Source of the DNA: Immundisolibacter sp.
Lineage (GTDB): Bacteria > Pseudomonadota > Gammaproteobacteria > Immundisolibacterales > Immundisolibacteraceae
Direction: 5' to 3'
DNA length: 35,966 bases
Assembly (NCBI RefSeq): GCF_028696615.1
Contig: NZ_JAQVGQ010000003.1
Coordinates: 1 to 35,966 of the forward strand
A model generated the notes under the pieces. It had not been told where the DNA came from and ran no database searches. It saw only the letters and a program-made list of their open reading frames with translations. Positions 1 through 9,675 of this stretch are shown piece after piece (positions within the stretch are counted from its first letter, which is position 1; each line of letters starts with the position of its first letter). The position numbers and the translations under genes were made by a program.

Positions 1-472
1 CCGCTTCGGTCAGCCAATAGCCGCCGGCCAGCTTGCGCCGATCTGCCTGCGCCAGCACCGGCAGCAGCGGCAGCTCGGCCGAGGTGGCGAGCCCGCTGAC
101 GGGTGCGGCCGGCGCCAAGCGCTGCACCCGAAACGGCTGGTCGCCCTCCGCCGCGAATACCACCAGATCGGCCGGCGGCGCCATCAGCAATTCGACGCGC
201 CCATCGGCGTGGCGGCGCGCCAGGTGAAACCCGGTGATGGTGAATGGTCCGGGTGCGGCCGGCGTGCCCAGGCTCGGGTGATCCACTTCGCCGCGCCCGA
301 AGGCGAACAGATCAAGCCCCGCGTCGGCCAGCATGCGCGAGCGCAGCGCGCCGGACGCCACCGAGGGCCAGGGCGGGATCAGCGCCTCGCCATGGCTGCC
401 CGGGTCGCCAAACAGCTTGTTGCCGCGCAGGAACAGCACATCCAGCGGCTCGATGAAAACGCTCGTGCTCAT
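1..472 (-). CDS. cmr3: Type III-B CRISPR RAMP protein Cmr3, N-terminal part (truncated by window edge)
   Basis: Reverse translation from ATG at 472-470 gives MSTSVFIEPLDVLFLRGNKLFGDPGSHGEALIPPWPSVASGALRSRMLADAG..., a Cmr3-like N-terminus. ATGA overlap with the cmr2 stop at 469-471. Not in the ORF track because it runs off the window. Confidence 0.88.
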   Translation of the reverse strand, partial: MSTSVFIEPLDVLFLRGNKLFGDPGSHGEALIPPWPSVASGALRSRMLADAGLDLFAFGRGEVDHPSLGTPAAPGPFTITGFHLARRHADGRVELLMAPPADLVVFAAEGDQPFRVQRLAPAAPVSGLATSAELPLLPVLAQADRRKLAGGYWLTEA

Positions 473-3400
473 GCGGTGGCTCCCTCGGCCGCGGTGGCCG
501 GTTGCGTGTCGGGTACGCCGGCGCGGGTCTCCCGGGCCAGGAATTCGGCCACCGACAGGAAGTTGCGCAGCCAGTCGAGGCCGTTCCTTTCCTGCTGGCT
601 GGCCAGCGCGGCGAGCCGGCGCGCCAGCTCGGGCGCCTGCGATTTGGCCGCGCTCTGCGCCTGCCGCGCGAGCTGGTAGCCGAGCAGGGCGCGCAGCATG
701 TCCGGGTGCGCCTTGGGGTCGGGCAGGTCGGTCAGCCACTCCAGGCTGTTGTAGACGGCCCGGCGCGACACGCCCGGATCGGCCAGAAAGCGGATGCTGT
801 GGTCGAGCAGCGCCACCGGCTCGCCCCATTTTTCGGTGAGGTGCAGCGCTCCGCCGGAGCGCTTGATGACGGTGATCGAGAACGCATCGCGATCGACCCA
901 TTGGCCGTGTTCATCCGGCCGGCGATACGCCTTGGCGCGCTTTTCCGCCGCCCGTAGCTCGCGCAGCACCGCGGACAGCGGCGCCTGGTGATGGGCGATC
1001 ACGGCGCCGGTGGAGGCGGTGGCGTGGCGGCCCATCATGCGCAGCAGTCGGCCGTTCAGGTACGCGAAACCGTTCTTGCAGTGCAGCGCCTTGCGATCCG
1101 CGCGCAGCTCGCGCCAGCTCACGTCCGCATCCTCCGGCAAGGTGCCGCTATAGGCGTGGCGCAGCCGCTGCATGGCCGGTAGCAGGTCGGCCACTGGCAG
1201 CATGGCGAGCACGTCGTCGCCACCGGCGTAGATCACGCGGCCGAGGTACTCGGTCTCGACCACATGGCGCACCACGGCCTGCGAAAAGTCGTTGAGTGCG
1301 CCGGACACGGCGAGGTGACGGTTGGGCGAAATGGCGCGTTTCTGTTCGCCGTAGCGGCGGATTAGCGGCTGCGTGGCCGCGCGTTCGTCGAAGCCCTTGC
1401 GCACCTGCGGGTGGAAGCTGTCGCGGTAGCTGATGCTGGTCTTGTCGTCGCCCGACAGGATCGCACCCATGCGGTCGCCGTCCATCATCAGCAGCGCGTA
1501 GTAGGTTTCGAGCCTGACTTCTGACTTGTCCGACGCCGTTGCCAACGTCGCTCGCACCAGGCGGCGTGCAGACTCGACAGCGGCGTCATCGTCGCCGTCC
1601 TGCGCCGCTTCCAGCAGGCCGGGGATGCGCTTGGCATCGGCGAGCGCGGCCGGGTTGCTCTTGTGGCGCAGCATCAGTGCCCGCGGCAACGCGACCGCCT
1701 CGGCGCTGTGCTTCCGGCATTCGGCATCGAGGCCCGGCGCGGTGTGGCCGCCTTTCTCCAGCCAGCGGTCGAGCTGGCTCGCCAGCGCCATGGTGTGCGT
1801 GGAGACCACGAAGCGGTCGATGCGCCGCGCAGCGCCGTCGTCGCGCGGGTTGAGCACCCGGCCCACTTCCTCGGCAAAGATCGTCGGCCACAGGCGCTTG
1901 ATGGCCGGCAGTGCACCCAGGTGCTCGCCCTTTTTCGCCCAGGAAGGTTTGCTCGCGGCCACGCGCGCCCACAGCGTGTCGGTCTGCTGGCGGTAGGACT
2001 TTTTCAGTTGCTCGCGGTCCGTGGTCAGCCACTCCGTCTCGCCGGTCAGCGAACAGCGCCAGCCCTGCTGCGCGCTCTGCGCGAACGGGCGCGTGCTCTT
2101 GGCCGCCGCCAGTACGCGCTCGGCGAGGTCGTACACCGCCGGGTAGAGCACGCCTGGGTTGGGGGCAAAGAAGGTGGTGCCGTCGCCCCAGGCAATGTCC
2201 TTTTGCAGCGCCTGCCAGGCCGGAGTGGCGAGAAATCCGCTGGGCTCGCCGGGCTGTACGCCGAAGAAAGGCGCCATCGCCGCCGAAAGCGCACTGGTAT
2301 CGAGATCGCGCTGTTTCGCCGCATCCCGGCAGCGGATGACCGAGAACGGCACCGCGGCCCAGTGCACTTCGGGAAAGCCGGCGAGCTGCTCCTTCATTTG
2401 TTCGTAGGGCGTCAGCGTCGTTTCCTTGTCGAAGCCAGCTTCGTGCAATAGCCGCATCACGACGTCTTCACCCAGTCGTGCGAGCCAGTCGCGCACCTGC
2501 CGGGTGACGTTCTCGGCAATCTGCCGCGCCCGGCTCGCCGGCACCACGGCCACGAAGCGGTTGGGCAGCGCGGCCGCGAACAGCGGGTTGGCGTCGGTCG
2601 CGCCCTTGTTCCATTCACAATGCCGGAACAGCGCATCGGGCAGGCCCATCGCGTCGCGCAGCCACAGATCCACCTGCGCGATGCCGCGCAGGCGCGGAAA
2701 CAGAATCGCGTCCGGCCCCAGCTCTTCGCACACCGGGCGCATCGCTTCCCAGGCCAGGCGCGACAGCAGGTGCGATCCAGCCCACAGGTCCGAGGTCGAG
2801 CGCGCGGCGGCGATGAAGCCCTGCACCGGGCCGATCGAGAGCGCCAGCAGCGCCGCCTCGCCGTCCGGATCGGCAGCAAAGGCGCCGGCGAAGGCGGAGG
2901 TCAGATCGAGGTGATCCCAGATGCTGTGATCCGGCACCCGGGTGTCGACCGGCAGCACTTCCCACAGCGCGCCGAGCTTGTGGTTGTCGTCGGTATCGGC
3001 GCCGGTGGCGGCCAGGTCCGGCCCGAAGCGCCAGTAGGCGAGCAGCGTCTTGCGCCAGTCCTGCGGCGCATCGCCCTGGGCGCCGAGCTTGATGAGCAGC
3101 TCGGAGAAGTGATCGGAGCTGCGCTGCTTGAGCGCGTCGAGTTTGGTGTCGGACAGGTCGTGCAGGTCCACGGCATCGCCGGTCAGCGGGTGGATCAGCA
3201 CCGGCTGCTGCGTCCAGGGCACCCGAGCCCAGTCGGCCACGGCGAGCGTCCGGGTGTCGCCGGTCTTGGTCTTGACGGTGATCTCGTCCATCGGCCACTG
3301 CGGCCGGTCGGCAGCGGCGGCCCACCAGTCGGCGCGCTGCACCTGACGGTAGATGTCCGCCGGCAGGCCCTGCCTGAACAGCAGGTTGGCGAGCGCCTGG

Positions 3401-3576
3401 TCGTTGTCCGGGTCGATGTCGCCGGCTGGCAGCGCATCTAGCCCGAGCAGCCGGCGCAACGCGCGCGAGGTGCCGTTCTCGTGCCCGGCCGGGTCGCGCA
3501 ACAGCACCAGCGCCTTTTCCGCCGGGTCGTGGAGGCGGGCAGCGAGTTTGGTTTGCCAAATCTTGTCGTCGTTCAT
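469..3576 (-). CDS. cmr2: Type III-B CRISPR large subunit Cas10/Cmr2 (HD-like and GGDD motifs present)
   Basis: 1035 aa. N-terminal KLAARLHDPAEKALVLL (HD motif), palm motif VIYAGGDDVLAMLPV (GGDD), and IGPVQGFIAAARSTSDLWAGSHLLS typical of Cmr2. Confidence 0.96.
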   Translation of the reverse strand: MNDDKIWQTKLAARLHDPAEKALVLLRDPAGHENGTSRALRRLLGLDALPAGDIDPDNDQALANLLFRQGLPADIYRQVQRADWWAAAADRPQWPMDEITVKTKTGDTRTLAVADWARVPWTQQPVLIHPLTGDAVDLHDLSDTKLDALKQRSSDHFSELLIKLGAQGDAPQDWRKTLLAYWRFGPDLAATGADTDDNHKLGALWEVLPVDTRVPDHSIWDHLDLTSAFAGAFAADPDGEAALLALSIGPVQGFIAAARSTSDLWAGSHLLSRLAWEAMRPVCEELGPDAILFPRLRGIAQVDLWLRDAMGLPDALFRHCEWNKGATDANPLFAAALPNRFVAVVPASRARQIAENVTRQVRDWLARLGEDVVMRLLHEAGFDKETTLTPYEQMKEQLAGFPEVHWAAVPFSVIRCRDAAKQRDLDTSALSAAMAPFFGVQPGEPSGFLATPAWQALQKDIAWGDGTTFFAPNPGVLYPAVYDLAERVLAAAKSTRPFAQSAQQGWRCSLTGETEWLTTDREQLKKSYRQQTDTLWARVAASKPSWAKKGEHLGALPAIKRLWPTIFAEEVGRVLNPRDDGAARRIDRFVVSTHTMALASQLDRWLEKGGHTAPGLDAECRKHSAEAVALPRALMLRHKSNPAALADAKRIPGLLEAAQDGDDDAAVESARRLVRATLATASDKSEVRLETYYALLMMDGDRMGAILSGDDKTSISYRDSFHPQVRKGFDERAATQPLIRRYGEQKRAISPNRHLAVSGALNDFSQAVVRHVVETEYLGRVIYAGGDDVLAMLPVADLLPAMQRLRHAYSGTLPEDADVSWRELRADRKALHCKNGFAYLNGRLLRMMGRHATASTGAVIAHHQAPLSAVLRELRAAEKRAKAYRRPDEHGQWVDRDAFSITVIKRSGGALHLTEKWGEPVALLDHSIRFLADPGVSRRAVYNSLEWLTDLPDPKAHPDMLRALLGYQLARQAQSAAKSQAPELARRLAALASQQERNGLDWLRNFLSVAEFLARETRAGVPDTQPATAAEGATA

Positions 3577-3579
3577 GGA

Positions 3580-4779
3580 TTACTCCTGCACGCGCTGCAC
3601 GGTGAGGCTGTCGAGAACGGACTTGAGCGCTGTGCGGCGCTGCAGGTCCCTGATCGAGGCATAGGCGCGCTTGCCTTTTTCCTGCGATAACTCGTCCAGC
3701 AGTTCATGTACGCGCTGCCAGACGCCCTCGATGGCCTTGCGATCCGGGCGGAACGCAGGGGGCGGCAGACAGGGCACATGGAAGATCACGCCGACGAGCC
3801 TGCCGTCCGGCAAGGCGCGGACCTTGAAGCGCAGGGTGTTGGGCAGGCGCAGATTGAGGCTGTTTCTCCTGCCGTGGACGATGTCGTAATCCCACGGCTG
3901 CACGGAATGATTTGTTATCGGGTACGAGAGCCAATGCCGATCCTGCGGTCTGCCGTGGTCGATCCCGACTTGCTCGCCCTTTTTATTTGTCTTGGGTTTA
4001 TCCCCGTGAGCTGGCCGTAGTTCCAATGCAAACTGCGTACGCAGCCCGATCTTGATGATCGCCAGCGTCCTCATCAGTGCCTTCCAATCGGCGTGTGGCG
4101 CGGTCTGCCAGATCAGCGGACCCCGTTCGTCGCGGCCGATGGCGTGCGGCCAGTCGCGATCCAGGCAGTCGCGCCACGGTCGCAGCGGCAGGTCTAAAGC
4201 CAGCGGGCCGGTGTCGCCCTGCGGCATGAGCACGAACGAGCCCCAACCATTACGGCTGCGCCCGCCGAGCGTGCCGAAGCCGTGCATCAGCGCCAGCGCG
4301 CGTTCAACGGCCAGCAGGGCCGTGTCCGGTACGGCGACCGAGAACATGGCGGACTCGGCTGCCTGTATCGCGGTGTTGGCCTTGAGCGCCGGTGCCCTCG
4401 CGCCCTTCGGCAAGGTCAAGGGGCCGTAGCCGAGATACAGGTCGCTGCCGACCGCAAACCTCACTTCAGGATGGGCGACTGTCGGCAATGCCTGCCATGC
4501 GGTCAGCCGGCCTTCATCCCATCGATCTAGCCGCAGGCGAATGCGGCTTTTACGGCTGTCACCTTCGCCATCACTGGCGACGCCGAACAACATCCCCTCC
4601 TCACGCCGCATTGCCGGCACGTTGTCGCGAAAACCATGCTCGGCCGCCCACACCACCCGCCACCACTGGCGCAGCAGCGCCTTGATGGGCGGCGTGCGCC
4701 ACTGGGCGCTCTGCTCGGCGTTGCCGAGAAAAGCCGGGGTCAGGAAGCGCAATTCGTATTCGAGCGTTTTCATCTTCAT
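3580..4779 (-). CDS. cmr1: Type III-B CRISPR RAMP protein Cmr1
   Basis: MKMKTLEYELRFLTPAFLGNAEQSAQWRTPPIKALLRQWWRVVWAAEHG... is Cmr1-like. The tracked ORF begins at 4932, but homology starts at ATG 4779 (or 4773). 3-nt gap to cmr2. Confidence 0.92.
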   Translation of the reverse strand: MKMKTLEYELRFLTPAFLGNAEQSAQWRTPPIKALLRQWWRVVWAAEHGFRDNVPAMRREEGMLFGVASDGEGDSRKSRIRLRLDRWDEGRLTAWQALPTVAHPEVRFAVGSDLYLGYGPLTLPKGARAPALKANTAIQAAESAMFSVAVPDTALLAVERALALMHGFGTLGGRSRNGWGSFVLMPQGDTGPLALDLPLRPWRDCLDRDWPHAIGRDERGPLIWQTAPHADWKALMRTLAIIKIGLRTQFALELRPAHGDKPKTNKKGEQVGIDHGRPQDRHWLSYPITNHSVQPWDYDIVHGRRNSLNLRLPNTLRFKVRALPDGRLVGVIFHVPCLPPPAFRPDRKAIEGVWQRVHELLDELSQEKGKRAYASIRDLQRRTALKSVLDSLTVQRVQE

Positions 4780-4840
4780 CGTTGGATTCCGTCGTGGCGG
4801 TCGACAGGATGAGGGCCGCAACCCGGCCCGTGGCGATTTC

Positions 4841-4850
4841 GCAAGCTTGC
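4841..4850. promoter_or_regulatory. Palindrome GCAAGCTTGC upstream of cmr1 (candidate operator, copy A)
   Basis: Perfect 10-bp palindrome 62 nt upstream of the cmr1 start; one of three RCAAGCTTGY sites in the window, all in cas-operon gaps. Confidence 0.45.
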
Positions 4851-4949
4851 CGCTGTCCGCCGGCACGCCCTGCGGTCCCCGGTGTGCCGCGGACCCTGTC
4901 GTCGCGGCAGCCCAGGCGCTACGCTGAAACACATTCGGAGGTGTATGCC

Positions 4950-5387
4950 ATGCGAACCAACGTCGTGATCGACGACGAACTGGTGGCCGAAGTCATGCGC
5001 GTTACCCATGCCCGCAGCTAGCGCGAGGCAGTTGATTTGGGGGCCGCGCCACGCCCGCGACCGCGCTGCTCGACGAGGGCGATGCCTGCATCGCGCCGGT
5101 GATCCTGCAGGAGTTGCTGCAGGGCGCGCTCGCCCCAGGCGCTGGCGGAACTGCGCCACCGCTTTGCCGCGCTGTCGATATTGGAGCCCGCGCCGGGTGG
5201 GACCACCCATGCCGAGGCCGGCGCGCTGTACGTGCGCTGCCGCTGGGCCGGCGTCACGCCGCGCAGCCCGCACGACTGCCTGATCGCCCGGCTCGCCGTC
5301 GAATACGAACTGCCGCTGCTGCACGACGACCGCGACTTCGAGGCCATCGCCGGCATCGAGCCGGCCCTACGACTGCTGCGAGGGTAG
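4950..5387 (+). pseudogene. Degraded VapBC-like toxin-antitoxin remnant (antitoxin nonsense codon, deletion, frameshifted PIN-type toxin)
   Basis: After an RBS (cggaggtgt), ATG 4950 gives MRTNVVIDDELVAEVMRVTHARS then TAG (5019-5021), with REAVDLG continuing in frame. Next come LLDEGDACIAPVILQELLQGA in another frame, then ALAELRHRFAALSILEPAPGGTTHAEAG...SPHDCLIARLAVEYELPLLHDDRDFEAIAGIEPALRLLRG* (PIN C-terminus) ending at 5387. Confidence 0.8.
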
Positions 5388-5412
5388 TCGCCGCGGCACG
5401 GGGCCATCGCCC

Positions 5413-6612
5413 TCACGCCGCCAACCTGTGCAAACACCTTTGAATCTCCGCAGCGAGCTTGTCTCGGTCGCGCAGCTTGGGCCGCAGCGCCTCGCGCGTG
5501 GGCGGCGTGCCGTGCGCCAGGGCGTTGCGCAGGTTTTTGAGTGTCAGAAACGCCTCGCGCTTCCAGTCGGCGTGCTCGCCGGCGTGCAGTTCCTCGCCGA
5601 ACGCGCGCGCCAGGCGCTCCCGCGCGGCGTAGTCGAGCGGATCGTGCCCCTGCTCGAGGCACAGCCGGCTGAGCAAGCTCTCGTAGCCGAAGATGGCGGC
5701 GCGCACGAAGTCACCCCGGTTCAGGTGCTGGTGCGCCAGCTTGCGCTGCCGGGTGGCGAGGTCCGGCTCGCGTGCCCAGGCCAGGCGCTCGCGCAGGCGC
5801 TTTTGGAACAACCCGCTGGCGCCGGGCAGCGGCGCATCGAGCGCCGGCAGGAAGGTGGCGAGCTGCCGGGCGGCATCGGCGACGTTGGACGTACGCTCGA
5901 AAAAGGCGGCCTCCTCCAGGCAGTGGGTCTTGTCGGCCGCCACGCCATCGGCGGCCAGCAGCGGCGCAAACACGCGGTAATCGCCACTGGCGTCGAACAC
6001 GGCCAGCGCCTCCACCCAGCGCTGGATGGCGAGCAGGCCGTCCAGGCGCAGCACTGGCGTGTGGCCGTCCGCGGTCATTTCGAGCGCGCCGTAGTAGATG
6101 CCGGTGACCGTGCGCCCCAGGCGCTCGAGCACGAAGGCCGACACCAGGCTCAGCATCGGCAGATGCCGAAAGCCGTGCGTCACGTCCAGGCTGACCTCGC
6201 CGCGCCCGGCGGCCTGCTCGATACACTCCAGAATCTGCCGCTGCTCGGCCGCATCGCGGCCGAAGGGGATCAGCTTGAGGCGCACCGACCGGCCGATGGC
6301 GCGCTCGATCAACGGCTGGGCGCGCCCGAGCAGGTCCGCGGTGACGCGCCCGGCGGCGACGGCCTCCATCAGTTCGAGCCGCAGCGCCTCGTCGGCCTCG
6401 CCGATGCCGGGCAGGTTCTCGACCAGCACGTCCCACATGCTGGACTCGGTGCCGAGCAACACCAGCAGGTCGGGGTCGAGATGCCGCGCCAGCGCCAGGC
6501 CGAAGAACGGCGTGGTTGCCGTGCGGCCGTCGGCAAAGCGATAGCTCGCCTCGCGGTAGCCCGAAGTCGGATTGTCGCGGCCGCGGCCCAGAAAGCTCAC
6601 CAGGGTGTGCAT
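5413..6612 (-). CDS. Csx1/Csx2-type (TM1812/TIGR02221-like) CARF-HEPN ribonuclease
   Basis: DVTHGFRHLP (DxTHG motif) in the CARF region; C-terminal LKNLRNALAHG gives the HEPN R-x4-H motif; within the III-B operon. Confidence 0.9.
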   Translation of the reverse strand: MHTLVSFLGRGRDNPTSGYREASYRFADGRTATTPFFGLALARHLDPDLLVLLGTESSMWDVLVENLPGIGEADEALRLELMEAVAAGRVTADLLGRAQPLIERAIGRSVRLKLIPFGRDAAEQRQILECIEQAAGRGEVSLDVTHGFRHLPMLSLVSAFVLERLGRTVTGIYYGALEMTADGHTPVLRLDGLLAIQRWVEALAVFDASGDYRVFAPLLAADGVAADKTHCLEEAAFFERTSNVADAARQLATFLPALDAPLPGASGLFQKRLRERLAWAREPDLATRQRKLAHQHLNRGDFVRAAIFGYESLLSRLCLEQGHDPLDYAARERLARAFGEELHAGEHADWKREAFLTLKNLRNALAHGTPPTREALRPKLRDRDKLAAEIQRCLHRLAA

Positions 6613-6618
6613 CGGCGT

Positions 6619-7755
6619 TCAGTCCTCGCGCAGGATGATGGCGTTCGGTGGCAGGTCGAGACGGTACTCTTTCGGCCGCCCCTCGCCCCGGATGAGATAG
6701 GGCGCCGCGTGGCGCGGCGCCCCCAGCGCGTCCACCAGAGCCTGATTGACGCGTGTGCGGCGTTCGTCGAAATCGCCCTTCGACATGCCGTTGCGGTAGC
6801 GGGCGTCGGTGCGCGCGTTCCTTCCTTGCAGGCGGTCGTATTCGACGAGGTAGTCGCGCGCGTAGTCGGCATCCGGCACGCCATCGGCCGGGCGGCGCAG
6901 GCCCGGCAGCCCTGCGCGGGCGCGGCGCGCGAACCAGAGCAGAAAGGCCAGGTCTGCCGGGCGCATGGCCACGGCCTGCCCGCCGGCCTCGACCCGCCCG
7001 TCGACGACGTCGATCACCAGCCGTGGCGGCGCCAGCGCCCGGTTGAGCGCGGCGACCACCTCCGAAAAGCGCGCGCTGCCGGCGAGCAGTGCCGCCGGCT
7101 GGCCCTCGCGCAGGCGCACGAAGGGAATCTCGGCCAGCGTCACCTGCGCCTGCTGGCAGTCGAGCGGGCGCGGGTTGGGGCCGAGCGTGTGGATCACCCG
7201 CTCGGTCGGGCTCGGGTAGTAGAACTGCGGGTGGCCCTCGAAACCTTCGTCCACCAGCACGTGGGAGAGCCGGTCCTGGGCGCGGCCGAACAGAGACAGC
7301 GCGTAGCCGAGGTAATAGCCCATGGTCTTGCGCCCGCCGGCGATCGACACGTGCAGCGCGCAGTCGGGCTCCCTGGTGAGCGCGCGCACGGCTTCGGTCA
7401 GCGCGTCGGCGGTGGCGTCGTTGTCGGCCTGGCTGCGGATATCGGCCAGCGGCGCGCCGGCGGCGTCGCGGATCACCTCGATGCAGTCGGCATCGAAACG
7501 GATCGGCGGCAGGCCGTAGTCGGCACGCAGGCGCTCGAACCAGCGATCGCCGGACAGCAGATTCAGCCGCGCGTGCTCGGCGCCGCGCGCTGTGGTGAGC
7601 AGGCGGATTTCCGTAGGAATCCACGGCCGCTCGCCACGCACGGCGAGCGCGTACAGCGTCTCGGTGACGATCTGCGGCGACAGGCCGCTGACCGCCAGCA
7701 GCACGCGGCGCGGAAAGTCGGCGGGGTCGCGGACAACGGCTTCGGGTGTGTTCAT
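6619..7755 (-). CDS. CARF-domain CRISPR-associated protein, TIGR02584 (NE0113) family, putative ring nuclease; C-terminus resembles a winged helix
   Basis: RRVLLAVSGLSPQIVTETLYALAVRGERPWIPTEIRLLTTARGAEHARLNLL and HVSIAGGRKTMGYYLGYALSLFGRAQDRLSHVLV are characteristic. Start placed at MNTPEAVV (7755); the tracked ORF starts at 7782. Confidence 0.85.
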   Translation of the reverse strand: MNTPEAVVRDPADFPRRVLLAVSGLSPQIVTETLYALAVRGERPWIPTEIRLLTTARGAEHARLNLLSGDRWFERLRADYGLPPIRFDADCIEVIRDAAGAPLADIRSQADNDATADALTEAVRALTREPDCALHVSIAGGRKTMGYYLGYALSLFGRAQDRLSHVLVDEGFEGHPQFYYPSPTERVIHTLGPNPRPLDCQQAQVTLAEIPFVRLREGQPAALLAGSARFSEVVAALNRALAPPRLVIDVVDGRVEAGGQAVAMRPADLAFLLWFARRARAGLPGLRRPADGVPDADYARDYLVEYDRLQGRNARTDARYRNGMSKGDFDERRTRVNQALVDALGAPRHAAPYLIRGEGRPKEYRLDLPPNAIILRED

Positions 7756-7796
7756 GGCCCCAGTCTGCCGCCGATCGTCCATCCCCTCCTCCCGCT

Positions 7797-7806
7797 ACAA
7801 GCTTGT
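7797..7806. promoter_or_regulatory. Palindrome ACAAGCTTGT in the cas6-CARF gap (candidate operator, copy B)
   Basis: Perfect 10-bp palindrome 42 nt upstream of the CARF gene start (7755), just past the cas6 stop. Confidence 0.45.
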
Positions 7807-7808
7807 CG

Positions 7809-8786
7809 TTACATGCTGAGTCGATAGCGACCCAGACCCATCACCGCGCCCTTGCCGGCGTGCGTCCACTGGCCGAGCCACAGATAGGGCCACAACGGCG
7901 CCAGCGCCGCGCCCGGCAGCACGAAGGCGCCGACCAGGCCGCCCATCTGCAGCAGCGCATCCTGGCGCGCCGAGTAGCGCGTCCAGTCGTGCCAGCGCAG
8001 GTCGGCATCCTCGATGGGAACCGCCTCGGCGGCCTGCACCAGGGCGCGGAAATCGGTGTCGAGCGGCGTGTCGGTGTGGAAATAGGAGAGCAGCGACAGC
8101 CGCCGCAGCAGCGCCGAGAAGAAATCCCGAAACCGCAGCCGCTCGGCCGTGACCAGGTCCTCGGCCACCTTCAGGCGCAGCGGCGTCGAGAGTTCCACGC
8201 GCACCAGGCCGGCGGGCGGCGGTGGAATGCTCGGCACGCGCGCAGGCTGCGACTGCAGCCGTCCGCCGCTGGCGTAGATCGTCTGCCAGCCGGCGGCGGT
8301 CTGCTGCTCGACGCGGGCGAGCGCATAGCGGCCGGCTCCCTGCGCCGCGCCCTGGCCGACGCCGCCTTGGCCGGCGCGACGCAGCGCCTCGATGAAATAG
8401 GCGAGCTGGGCCTGGCCGCGCCCGATCAGCACCAGGTCGACGCCAAAGGTTTCACCGGGCGCGACATCGCGGCAGTCGGGCCAGGGTTCGACTACGAACG
8501 GATGCGGCGCCGCCGGGTACTTGCGCAGCTTCTCGGCGCGCTCCGGCGGCGGCGTCTCGAACACGTAGGGATAGACGCAGGAGCGGTACAGCAGGCAGTC
8601 CGGGCAGTGCCGCGCGCCGGTGACGCACACCGTGCGTTTGAGCGCATGCCCCAGCGCGCCGCGCCAGGCAGAGCCGGCATAGGCCGGCAGGCGCACGGCG
8701 CTGTCGGCGATCAGATGCAGGCGGTAACGGGCCACCGGCAGCGCAACGAGCGTTGTAGCGGCTGCGGTGAACGACACAGGTTCCAT
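7809..8786 (-). CDS. cas6: CRISPR pre-crRNA processing endoribonuclease, RAMP protein Cas6
   Basis: Cys cluster CVTGARHCPDCLLYRSCVYPYVFETPP and C-terminal Gly-rich HAGKGAVMGLGRYRL typical of Cas6. Start at MEPVSFTAA (8786). Confidence 0.88.
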   Translation of the reverse strand: MEPVSFTAAATTLVALPVARYRLHLIADSAVRLPAYAGSAWRGALGHALKRTVCVTGARHCPDCLLYRSCVYPYVFETPPPERAEKLRKYPAAPHPFVVEPWPDCRDVAPGETFGVDLVLIGRGQAQLAYFIEALRRAGQGGVGQGAAQGAGRYALARVEQQTAAGWQTIYASGGRLQSQPARVPSIPPPPAGLVRVELSTPLRLKVAEDLVTAERLRFRDFFSALLRRLSLLSYFHTDTPLDTDFRALVQAAEAVPIEDADLRWHDWTRYSARQDALLQMGGLVGAFVLPGAALAPLWPYLWLGQWTHAGKGAVMGLGRYRLSM

Positions 8787-8892
8787 GAGCACCCCGGGGC
8801 AGGAAGGCGGGCAGTCTGTCGGCCACCACCCGCGCGGCCTTGAATCGGCCGATGCCACAGCATCTCGCCGCCAGCCACAGCCAGCTCATCCT

Positions 8893-8902
8893 GCAAGCTT
8901 GC
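8893..8902. promoter_or_regulatory. Palindrome GCAAGCTTGC upstream of cas6 (candidate operator, copy C)
   Basis: Perfect 10-bp palindrome 107 nt upstream of the cas6 start, between the anbu terminator and cas6. Confidence 0.45.
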
Positions 8903-8919
8903 CGGGTGAAGTCGGGCCT

Positions 8920-8938
8920 AAAAAAAACCTCAAGAGGT
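8920..8938 (-). terminator. Rho-independent terminator of the Anbu gene
   Basis: Minus strand reads ACCTC-TT-GAGGT-TTTTTTT; the stem abuts and overlaps the anbu stop codon (8938-8940). Confidence 0.75.
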
Positions 8939-9675
8939 CATCCCCCCAACTCCCAGTCGAAGCGCGGCAGGTCCAAAAAGGCGCGCTTGAGGCCCTCGTT
9001 CCAGCCCTGCTGGATACCTTGGTACAGCGGTGAGTCGGCGGCCAGCGTCAGGCGGCGGGTGACGCGCAGCGCGCCGGCCTCGCACACCGCCAGGTCCAGC
9101 GGCGGGCCGACCGAGACGTTGGCGCGGATGGTGGAATCCAGCGACACCAGCGCGCAGCGGGCGGCGTCGTCGAGCGTGGTGTCGGGCGCGATGATGCGGT
9201 CCAGGATCGGCTTGCCATACTTGGTCTCGCCGATCTGCAGGTAGGGGGTTTCCGGCGTGGCGCTGATGTAGTTGCCCTGCGCGTACACCAGGCACAGCTC
9301 GTGGGTACTGCCGGCGACCTCGCCGCCGATGATGAAGGTGGCCTCGGCGCTGACGCCGCTGCGCGCCAGCGCGTCGGCGTGCTCCTGCTGGATGCGGTAA
9401 CTGAGCTTGCCAAGGTAGTCGGCCGCCTCGAACGGGTCGCGCACCTGCCGCAGGCCGGGACCGGCCGGGTCGTTGAACTCGCGCCGCAGGGCGTTGATGA
9501 CCGCCTGGCTGGTGGCGAGGTTGCCGGCGCTGAGCACAACGAACACCCGCTCGCCCGGCTGCTCGAACACGTGCATCTTGCTGTAGGTGCTGATGTGGTC
9601 GACGCCGGCGTTGGTGCGCGAGTCGGAGGCGAACACCAGCCCGGCATTCACCTTGATGCCGACACAGTAAGTCAT
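8938..9675 (-). CDS. Anbu-type proteasome-like peptidase (bacterial beta-subunit homologue)
   Basis: MTYCVGIKVNAGLVFASDSRTNAGVDHISTYSKMHVFEQPGERVFVVLSAGNLATSQAVI... is characteristic of Anbu, with candidate Thr nucleophile after Met1. Confidence 0.92.
   Translation of the reverse strand: MTYCVGIKVNAGLVFASDSRTNAGVDHISTYSKMHVFEQPGERVFVVLSAGNLATSQAVINALRREFNDPAGPGLRQVRDPFEAADYLGKLSYRIQQEHADALARSGVSAEATFIIGGEVAGSTHELCLVYAQGNYISATPETPYLQIGETKYGKPILDRIIAPDTTLDDAARCALVSLDSTIRANVSVGPPLDLAVCEAGALRVTRRLTLAADSPLYQGIQQGWNEGLKRAFLDLPRFDWELGG

Follow-up and report, generated by a model that had tools for sequence, protein, structure and literature searches.

The closest studied regulator is Csa3, in which an N-terminal CARF domain is joined to a C-terminal winged helix-turn-helix (wHTH), which is encoded in cas loci and for which palindromic sites in cas promoters are expected, as for the protein described here. 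Csa3a activates the adaptation genes and the CRISPR arrays, and Csa3b activates the cmr genes (reviewed in PMC8844856; also PMC7480081). The Csa3 proteins studied so far come from archaea and are associated with type I systems, whereas the protein considered here is a CARF5/NE0113 protein of bacterial type III-A/III-B systems, with an OmpR/PhoB-like wHTH and a promoter geometry of the sigma70 type. Direct transcription regulation was predicted for both Csa3 and NE0113 proteins by Makarova et al. in 2014 (PMC4012209), and for NE0113 this role has been only a prediction since then. A literature search, which did not cover the 2020 CARF classification, brought up no operator, regulon, sign or promoter architecture published for NE0113, and a search with the literal motif described below gave, among the matches listed, only titles unrelated to CRISPR regulation. 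A 2024 survey deliberately omitted regulators (PMC11229360), and the transcriptional control of bacterial type III CRISPR remains largely open.

The C-terminal domain of the protein is predicted to share the fold of OmpR/PhoB-type domains (PhoB, RstA, KdpE, BaeR, CadC). Regulators of this type are mostly controlled by phosphorylation, whereas the system here has a CARF sensor domain. They usually recognise direct repeats and not palindromes, whereas the element here is a symmetric palindrome, which counts against pairing it with CARF5. PhoB-like activators act at promoters with poor -35 boxes. The CapW-type WYL-wHTH regulator is described as a repressor, whereas activation is predicted for the CARF5 system. 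It resembles this system in being the ligand-sensing transcription factor of a defence operon (PMC9122588), and differs in its WYL sensor. We rate the CARF5-wHTH protein as a variant of the CARF-wHTH cas regulators (Csa3-like).

Organization of the type III-B operon and its palindromes

The window, that is, the whole stretch of 35,966 nucleotides that was analysed, carries a type III-B operon on its minus strand. This operon starts with cas6 (7809..8786, PF10040), followed by the gene of the CARF5-wHTH protein, proposed here as the cognate regulator (6619..7755), the gene of a Csx1/Csm6-like CARF2-HEPN effector (5413..6612, TIGR02221), a gap with a decayed vapBC pair, a cmr1-type RAMP gene (3580..4779, assigned from a family match and homologues), cmr2/cas10 (469..3576, TIGR02577) and the 5' part of cmr3 (1..472), which is cut by the window end.

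Three palindromes of the form RCAAGCTTGY are present in the window, every one within a gap of the cas operon: GCAAGCTTGC at 4841-4850, ACAAGCTTGT at 7797-7806 and GCAAGCTTGC at 8893-8902. The initial annotation had placed them correctly and had rightly read all three as cgRCAAGCTTGYRR on the operon strand; its statement that AAGCTT occurs nowhere else was also borne out, with zero further copies across the window. Dinucleotide shuffles of the window contained on average 0.15 RCAAGCTTGY matches, and none of 100 shuffles reached three. The 2.72-Mb assembly as a whole has seven copies, and the chance that three of the seven land in the window is about 1e-4. On contig C291, one of the four copies outside the window sits within the 3' end of a cmr3 gene; two others fall in ordinary reading frames, for instance a gyrB-like one, and the context of the fourth was not resolved. 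The observation of the palindrome is real and not a matter of chance.

Each of the three sites, extended to 14 nt and read on the minus strand, is followed by a -10-like box, whose distance is counted from the operator. Operator 1 (CGGCAAGCTTGCGA, 4839..4852) lies 61 nt upstream of the cmr1 ATG (4779) and has a weak box, CATCCT (4806..4811), at +39. Operator 2 (CGACAAGCTTGTAG, 7795..7808) is 41 nt upstream of the CARF5 ATG (7755), with the box CAGACT (7762..7767) at +39 and 6 nt before this ATG. Operator 3 (CGGCAAGCTTGCAG, 8891..8904) is 106 nt upstream of the cas6 ATG (8786), with GATGCT (8859..8864) at +38. The boxes of the window are weaker than those of the wider set of loci, and two of the three stand at +39.

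A conserved element with a fixed promoter geometry

Eighty named loci were fetched by the CARF protein alone, not by the motif, and 63 of them carry RCAAGCTTGY within 300 bp upstream of the CARF5 gene. The taxa with such a site include Gamma- and Betaproteobacteria as well as bins assigned to Acidobacteria, Binatota and Planctomycetes; the element is kept across phyla, as the initial annotation had demanded of orthologous loci. When all 1024 possible 10-bp palindromes were counted, GCAAGCTTGC was the sole strongly enriched one (46 of 79 upstream regions against 0.93 expected from the remainder of the loci), ACAAGCTTGT was found in seven of the 79 regions, and every other palindrome in at most one. 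After clustering of the CARF5 proteins at 75% identity, 36 of 51 lineages retain RCAAGCTTGY. Upstream regions with a site number 65 out of 81, compared with 0.06 in shuffles, and the same element is found ahead of cas6, cmr1, csm1, csm2, cas2 and a csx gene. That this is a conserved cis-element is close to certain, and the conserved palindromic site at cas promoters, which membership among the CARF-wHTH factors would imply, is present.

Alignment of 104 sites gives CG-RCAAGCTTGY-CG as the full element. Since loci without the perfect palindrome often have CGGCAACCTTGCCG or CGACAACGTTGTCG instead, CAA and TTG are the half-sites, and the centre between them is variable. A TATAAT-like hexamer follows at a fixed position, +38 from the start of the palindrome: the pattern NANNNT is found there at 65 of 103 sites on the downstream strand versus three of 103 on the other strand (p=2.5e-22), and against its background of 4.6% the same 65 sites give p ~1e-59. 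When a -35 box was sought in the aligned sites, no signal comparable to the -10 was detected, and almost none is present. With the hexamer set as -12 to -7, positions -50 to -41 are occupied by the palindrome. The TTGCCG of the palindrome itself was ruled out as a -35 box, since this would leave 26 bp between it and the -10. An ATG stands 5-9 nt after the -10 box in about a third of the sites, usually 6-7 nt, and the distance to the start codon varies otherwise. From this short distance a leaderless mRNA is predicted, also for the CARF5 gene of the window (7755-7767); a leaderless regulator mRNA is likewise predicted in about 30 loci of the L042-L121 set.

A -10 box fixed at +38 with almost no -35 box corresponds to the geometry of an activator-dependent promoter. 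It combines the features of a class-II-type activator promoter: the operator is fixed immediately before the -35 region, a -10 box is present and the -35 is poor. Because the operator keeps this position and a -35 box is missing, activation through direct polymerase contact is favoured over repression, and activation is the sign of regulation that we infer as likely. The evidence for a binding site would be identical if the CARF5-wHTH protein bound the palindrome as a repressor released by cOA; autorepression is common, and relief by cOA is possible. However, repressor sites usually overlap the promoter core and vary in position, whereas the palindrome lies upstream of the core at one fixed offset of +38 to the -10 box, overlaps neither this box nor the start and goes with a missing -35 box, which makes repression unlikely.

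The element is also found inside cmr3, about 95-115 nt before the stop and upstream of cmr4, in 16 genes of the set and in the cmr3 of contig C291. NANNNT stands at +38 in 17 of 17 of these internal sites. Furthermore, every cmr3 with Lys-Leu at the site uses CTT, which makes up only about 10% of the Leu codons in these genes, and such synonymous constraint argues for a regulatory element within the coding sequence. The equivalent cmr3 position of this operon lies beyond the window edge, and the homologous 3' end on contig C291 holds the further operator. Because of this internal site upstream of cmr4, the number of controlled starts in the operon is probably four or more, not three. The initial annotation had taken the palindromes as binding sites of one regulator that divides the operon into three controlled segments; the binding sites are supported, from sequence only, and none of the conditions stated for their refutation was fulfilled as far as sequence can show, whereas the three segments probably do not hold. 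It did not identify the regulator, for which the CARF5-wHTH protein is the most likely candidate, and gave no sign of regulation, activation being the likeliest.

A CARF protein with a predicted winged helix as the likely binder

The product of the gene at 6619..7755 is a member of NE0113/CARF5, with 235.5 bits for TIGR02584 (cut-off 80.65) and 153.2 for PF09623 (cut-off 23); its PADLOC match, CARF5--CARF, reaches 411 bits. No Csa3 model was found among its family matches, the best being CARF5/NE0113, and it does not qualify as a Csa3 member. The AlphaFold model has a pLDDT of 93.9 for the whole protein and of 96.5 for the C-terminal domain alone. This domain (residues 240-378, encoded by 6619..7038) was assigned as an OmpR/PhoB-type wHTH from the structure model, Foldseek and profiles: the best Foldseek matches are the DNA-binding domains of BaeR, PhoB and RstA (probability 0.91-0.98, E 0.014-0.08), and a profile search returned OmpR-family domains as well. 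The fold and profile scores behind the assignment are weak to moderate (best Foldseek E 0.014). The model of the C-terminus as a wHTH is confident, and the protein as modelled meets the requirement for a C-terminal wHTH DNA-binding domain, with a putative recognition helix at about residues 326-344. The N-terminal domain satisfies the requirement for a CARF fold, its top Foldseek matches being the Cad1 CARF, of which the structure has been solved with cA4, Cam1 and Csm6. Among the families shared by the loci, the CARF protein alone has a plausible DNA-binding domain, and no other DNA-binding family common to the loci was found. Although no binding data are at hand, CARF5 is very probably the binder of the element.

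Genome-wide matches to the operator together with its -10 box concentrate in cas loci, which agrees with the dedicated cas operator suggested at first. For the 12 CARF5 genomes searched, 39 matches were listed, and about 27-29 of them are in cas loci; the slack in this count comes from two palindromes read on both strands and from one match located 10 kb from its CARF gene. In five genomes all matches are within cas loci. A pattern with ANNNT only as the -10, run over 369 genomes of the class, was too noisy in the AT-richer genomes for a comparison of CARF5-positive and CARF5-negative ones, and the comparison was therefore based on loci. Cas10 loci were drawn independently with PF22335, which also matched many probable diguanylate cyclases, and strong matches alone were kept. 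Where the genome encodes a close CARF5 relative, 12 of 12 such loci have sites; without one, five of 19 do, the other 14 being site-free. The site is also absent with divergent CARF5 proteins that have different recognition helices; proteins of this kind were noted at five loci. This absence may be taken as supportive only of binding by CARF5, because the relatedness of the whole loci confounds it; an alternative operator was sought for the divergent CARF5 of two genomes, and no clear palindrome was apparent.

Some exceptions would suit a host regulator that binds the element in place of CARF5, or a promoter of an alternative sigma factor of which the element is part. Indeed, three site-bearing genomes (G016 with two loci, G197 and G278 with one each) have no CARF5 found in the assembly, one 4.3-kb contig is likewise an exception to the pairing of site and CARF5, and the fixed spacing could fit an upstream sigma-contact element. 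These three assemblies are fragmented and two of their loci are truncated near cmr1; their operators point either to missing sequence or to a different regulator. Both possibilities, host regulator and sigma factor, are nevertheless quite improbable: the element tracks cas loci across phyla and is rare elsewhere in the genome, it goes with close CARF5 relatives, the -10 resembles that of sigma70 promoters, and the distance of the palindrome (26-bp spacer from its TTG) is too great for a -35.

The window has only three copies and the initial annotation picked the motif after looking, but the idea that the palindrome arose by chance or from base composition, is left over from a HindIII site or belongs to a repeat element is already refuted by the conservation across phyla at one place, together with the fixed promoter geometry, the enrichment over all other palindromes, the mere seven copies genome-wide and the flanks, which are not repeated. 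The position upstream of cas6 and other cas genes could suggest an RNA element, either a hairpin or one resembling a CRISPR repeat, that serves Cas6 or crRNA-guided autoregulation, but this was rejected as having next to no probability, since CAAGCTTG is absent from all CRISPR repeats found in the loci, so that the repeat-like sequence in a cas promoter by which repeat-derived autoregulation is recognised is missing, there is no Rfam match, the palindrome has no loop and no conserved flanking stem, and, being located ahead of the predicted transcription start, it would not be transcribed from that promoter.

Proposed activation by the CARF5-wHTH protein

We propose that the element is the operator of a dimeric, class-II-like, cOA-dependent CARF5-wHTH activator, an explanation that, taken as a whole, we hold to be fairly probable. 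It builds on the conserved element, the fixed promoter geometry, the cas-specific distribution and the association with close CARF5 relatives, all seen in sequence comparisons. Each palindrome would bind a dimer of the operon-encoded CARF5-wHTH protein, which, located at about -50 to -41, would probably recruit RNA polymerase as a class-II-like activator to a sigma70 promoter with a -10 box and almost no -35. The targets would be its own gene (often leaderless), cas6, cmr1, an internal start before cmr4, csm1, csm2, the CARF-HEPN effector and cas2. With binding, expression and TSS data absent, direct binding to DNA, activation and control by cOA are inferences. The N-terminal CARF domain would probably make activation depend on cOA produced by Cas10 during infection. 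This control by cOA is somewhat favoured, from the CARF domain and its homology to Cad1 only; in vitro, Csa3 bound its promoter whether or not cA4 was present (PMC8844856), which counts against it.

The whole could amount to a horizontally mobile, cOA-gated positive-feedback circuit, in which cOA from Cas10 acts on CARF5-wHTH and, through it, on one conserved operator-promoter module that drives the leaderless gene of the regulator itself, the interference complex with the cmr3-internal promoter, the HEPN effector and cas2; for this circuit in its entirety we see the chances as evenly balanced. If it is true, detection of a phage transcript would cause the defence island to be transcribed as a whole, with adaptation as part of the response. 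A defined operator, e.g. CGGCAAGCTTGCCG DNA, together with the promoter geometry and the cognate protein makes the 2014 prediction testable, and the operator-promoter signature could serve for the prediction of type III regulons across phyla.

Other features of the operon and its surroundings

The NCBIfam title of TIGR02584, "CRISPR-associated ring nuclease Csm6", is ill-suited to a protein that combines a CARF domain with a winged helix and has no HEPN domain; PADLOC assigns CARF5 no effector domain, and our findings flag this database name as misleading. The decayed vapBC pair (4950-5387) lies on the plus strand in the gap between the HEPN effector gene and cmr1; its VapB has an in-frame TAG (PF09957 match, 4e-11) and its PIN domain is frameshifted (PF01850 match, 5e-5). 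A second copy of cmr3, followed by cmr4, is carried by contig C291 (L007) and is 90% identical to window positions 3-387. Either the type III-B module is duplicated or the bin contains sequence from a related strain; the contamination figure of the assembly is 5.96%. Among the genomes scanned, a Wenzhouxiangella MAG came out as the closest named relative. Directly upstream of cas6, on the minus strand, lies a proteasome-like peptidase gene (8938-9675, PF00227), and a homologue of this peptidase is found a few kb upstream of cas6 in a related genome (G001, positions 3793-4524 of locus L018).
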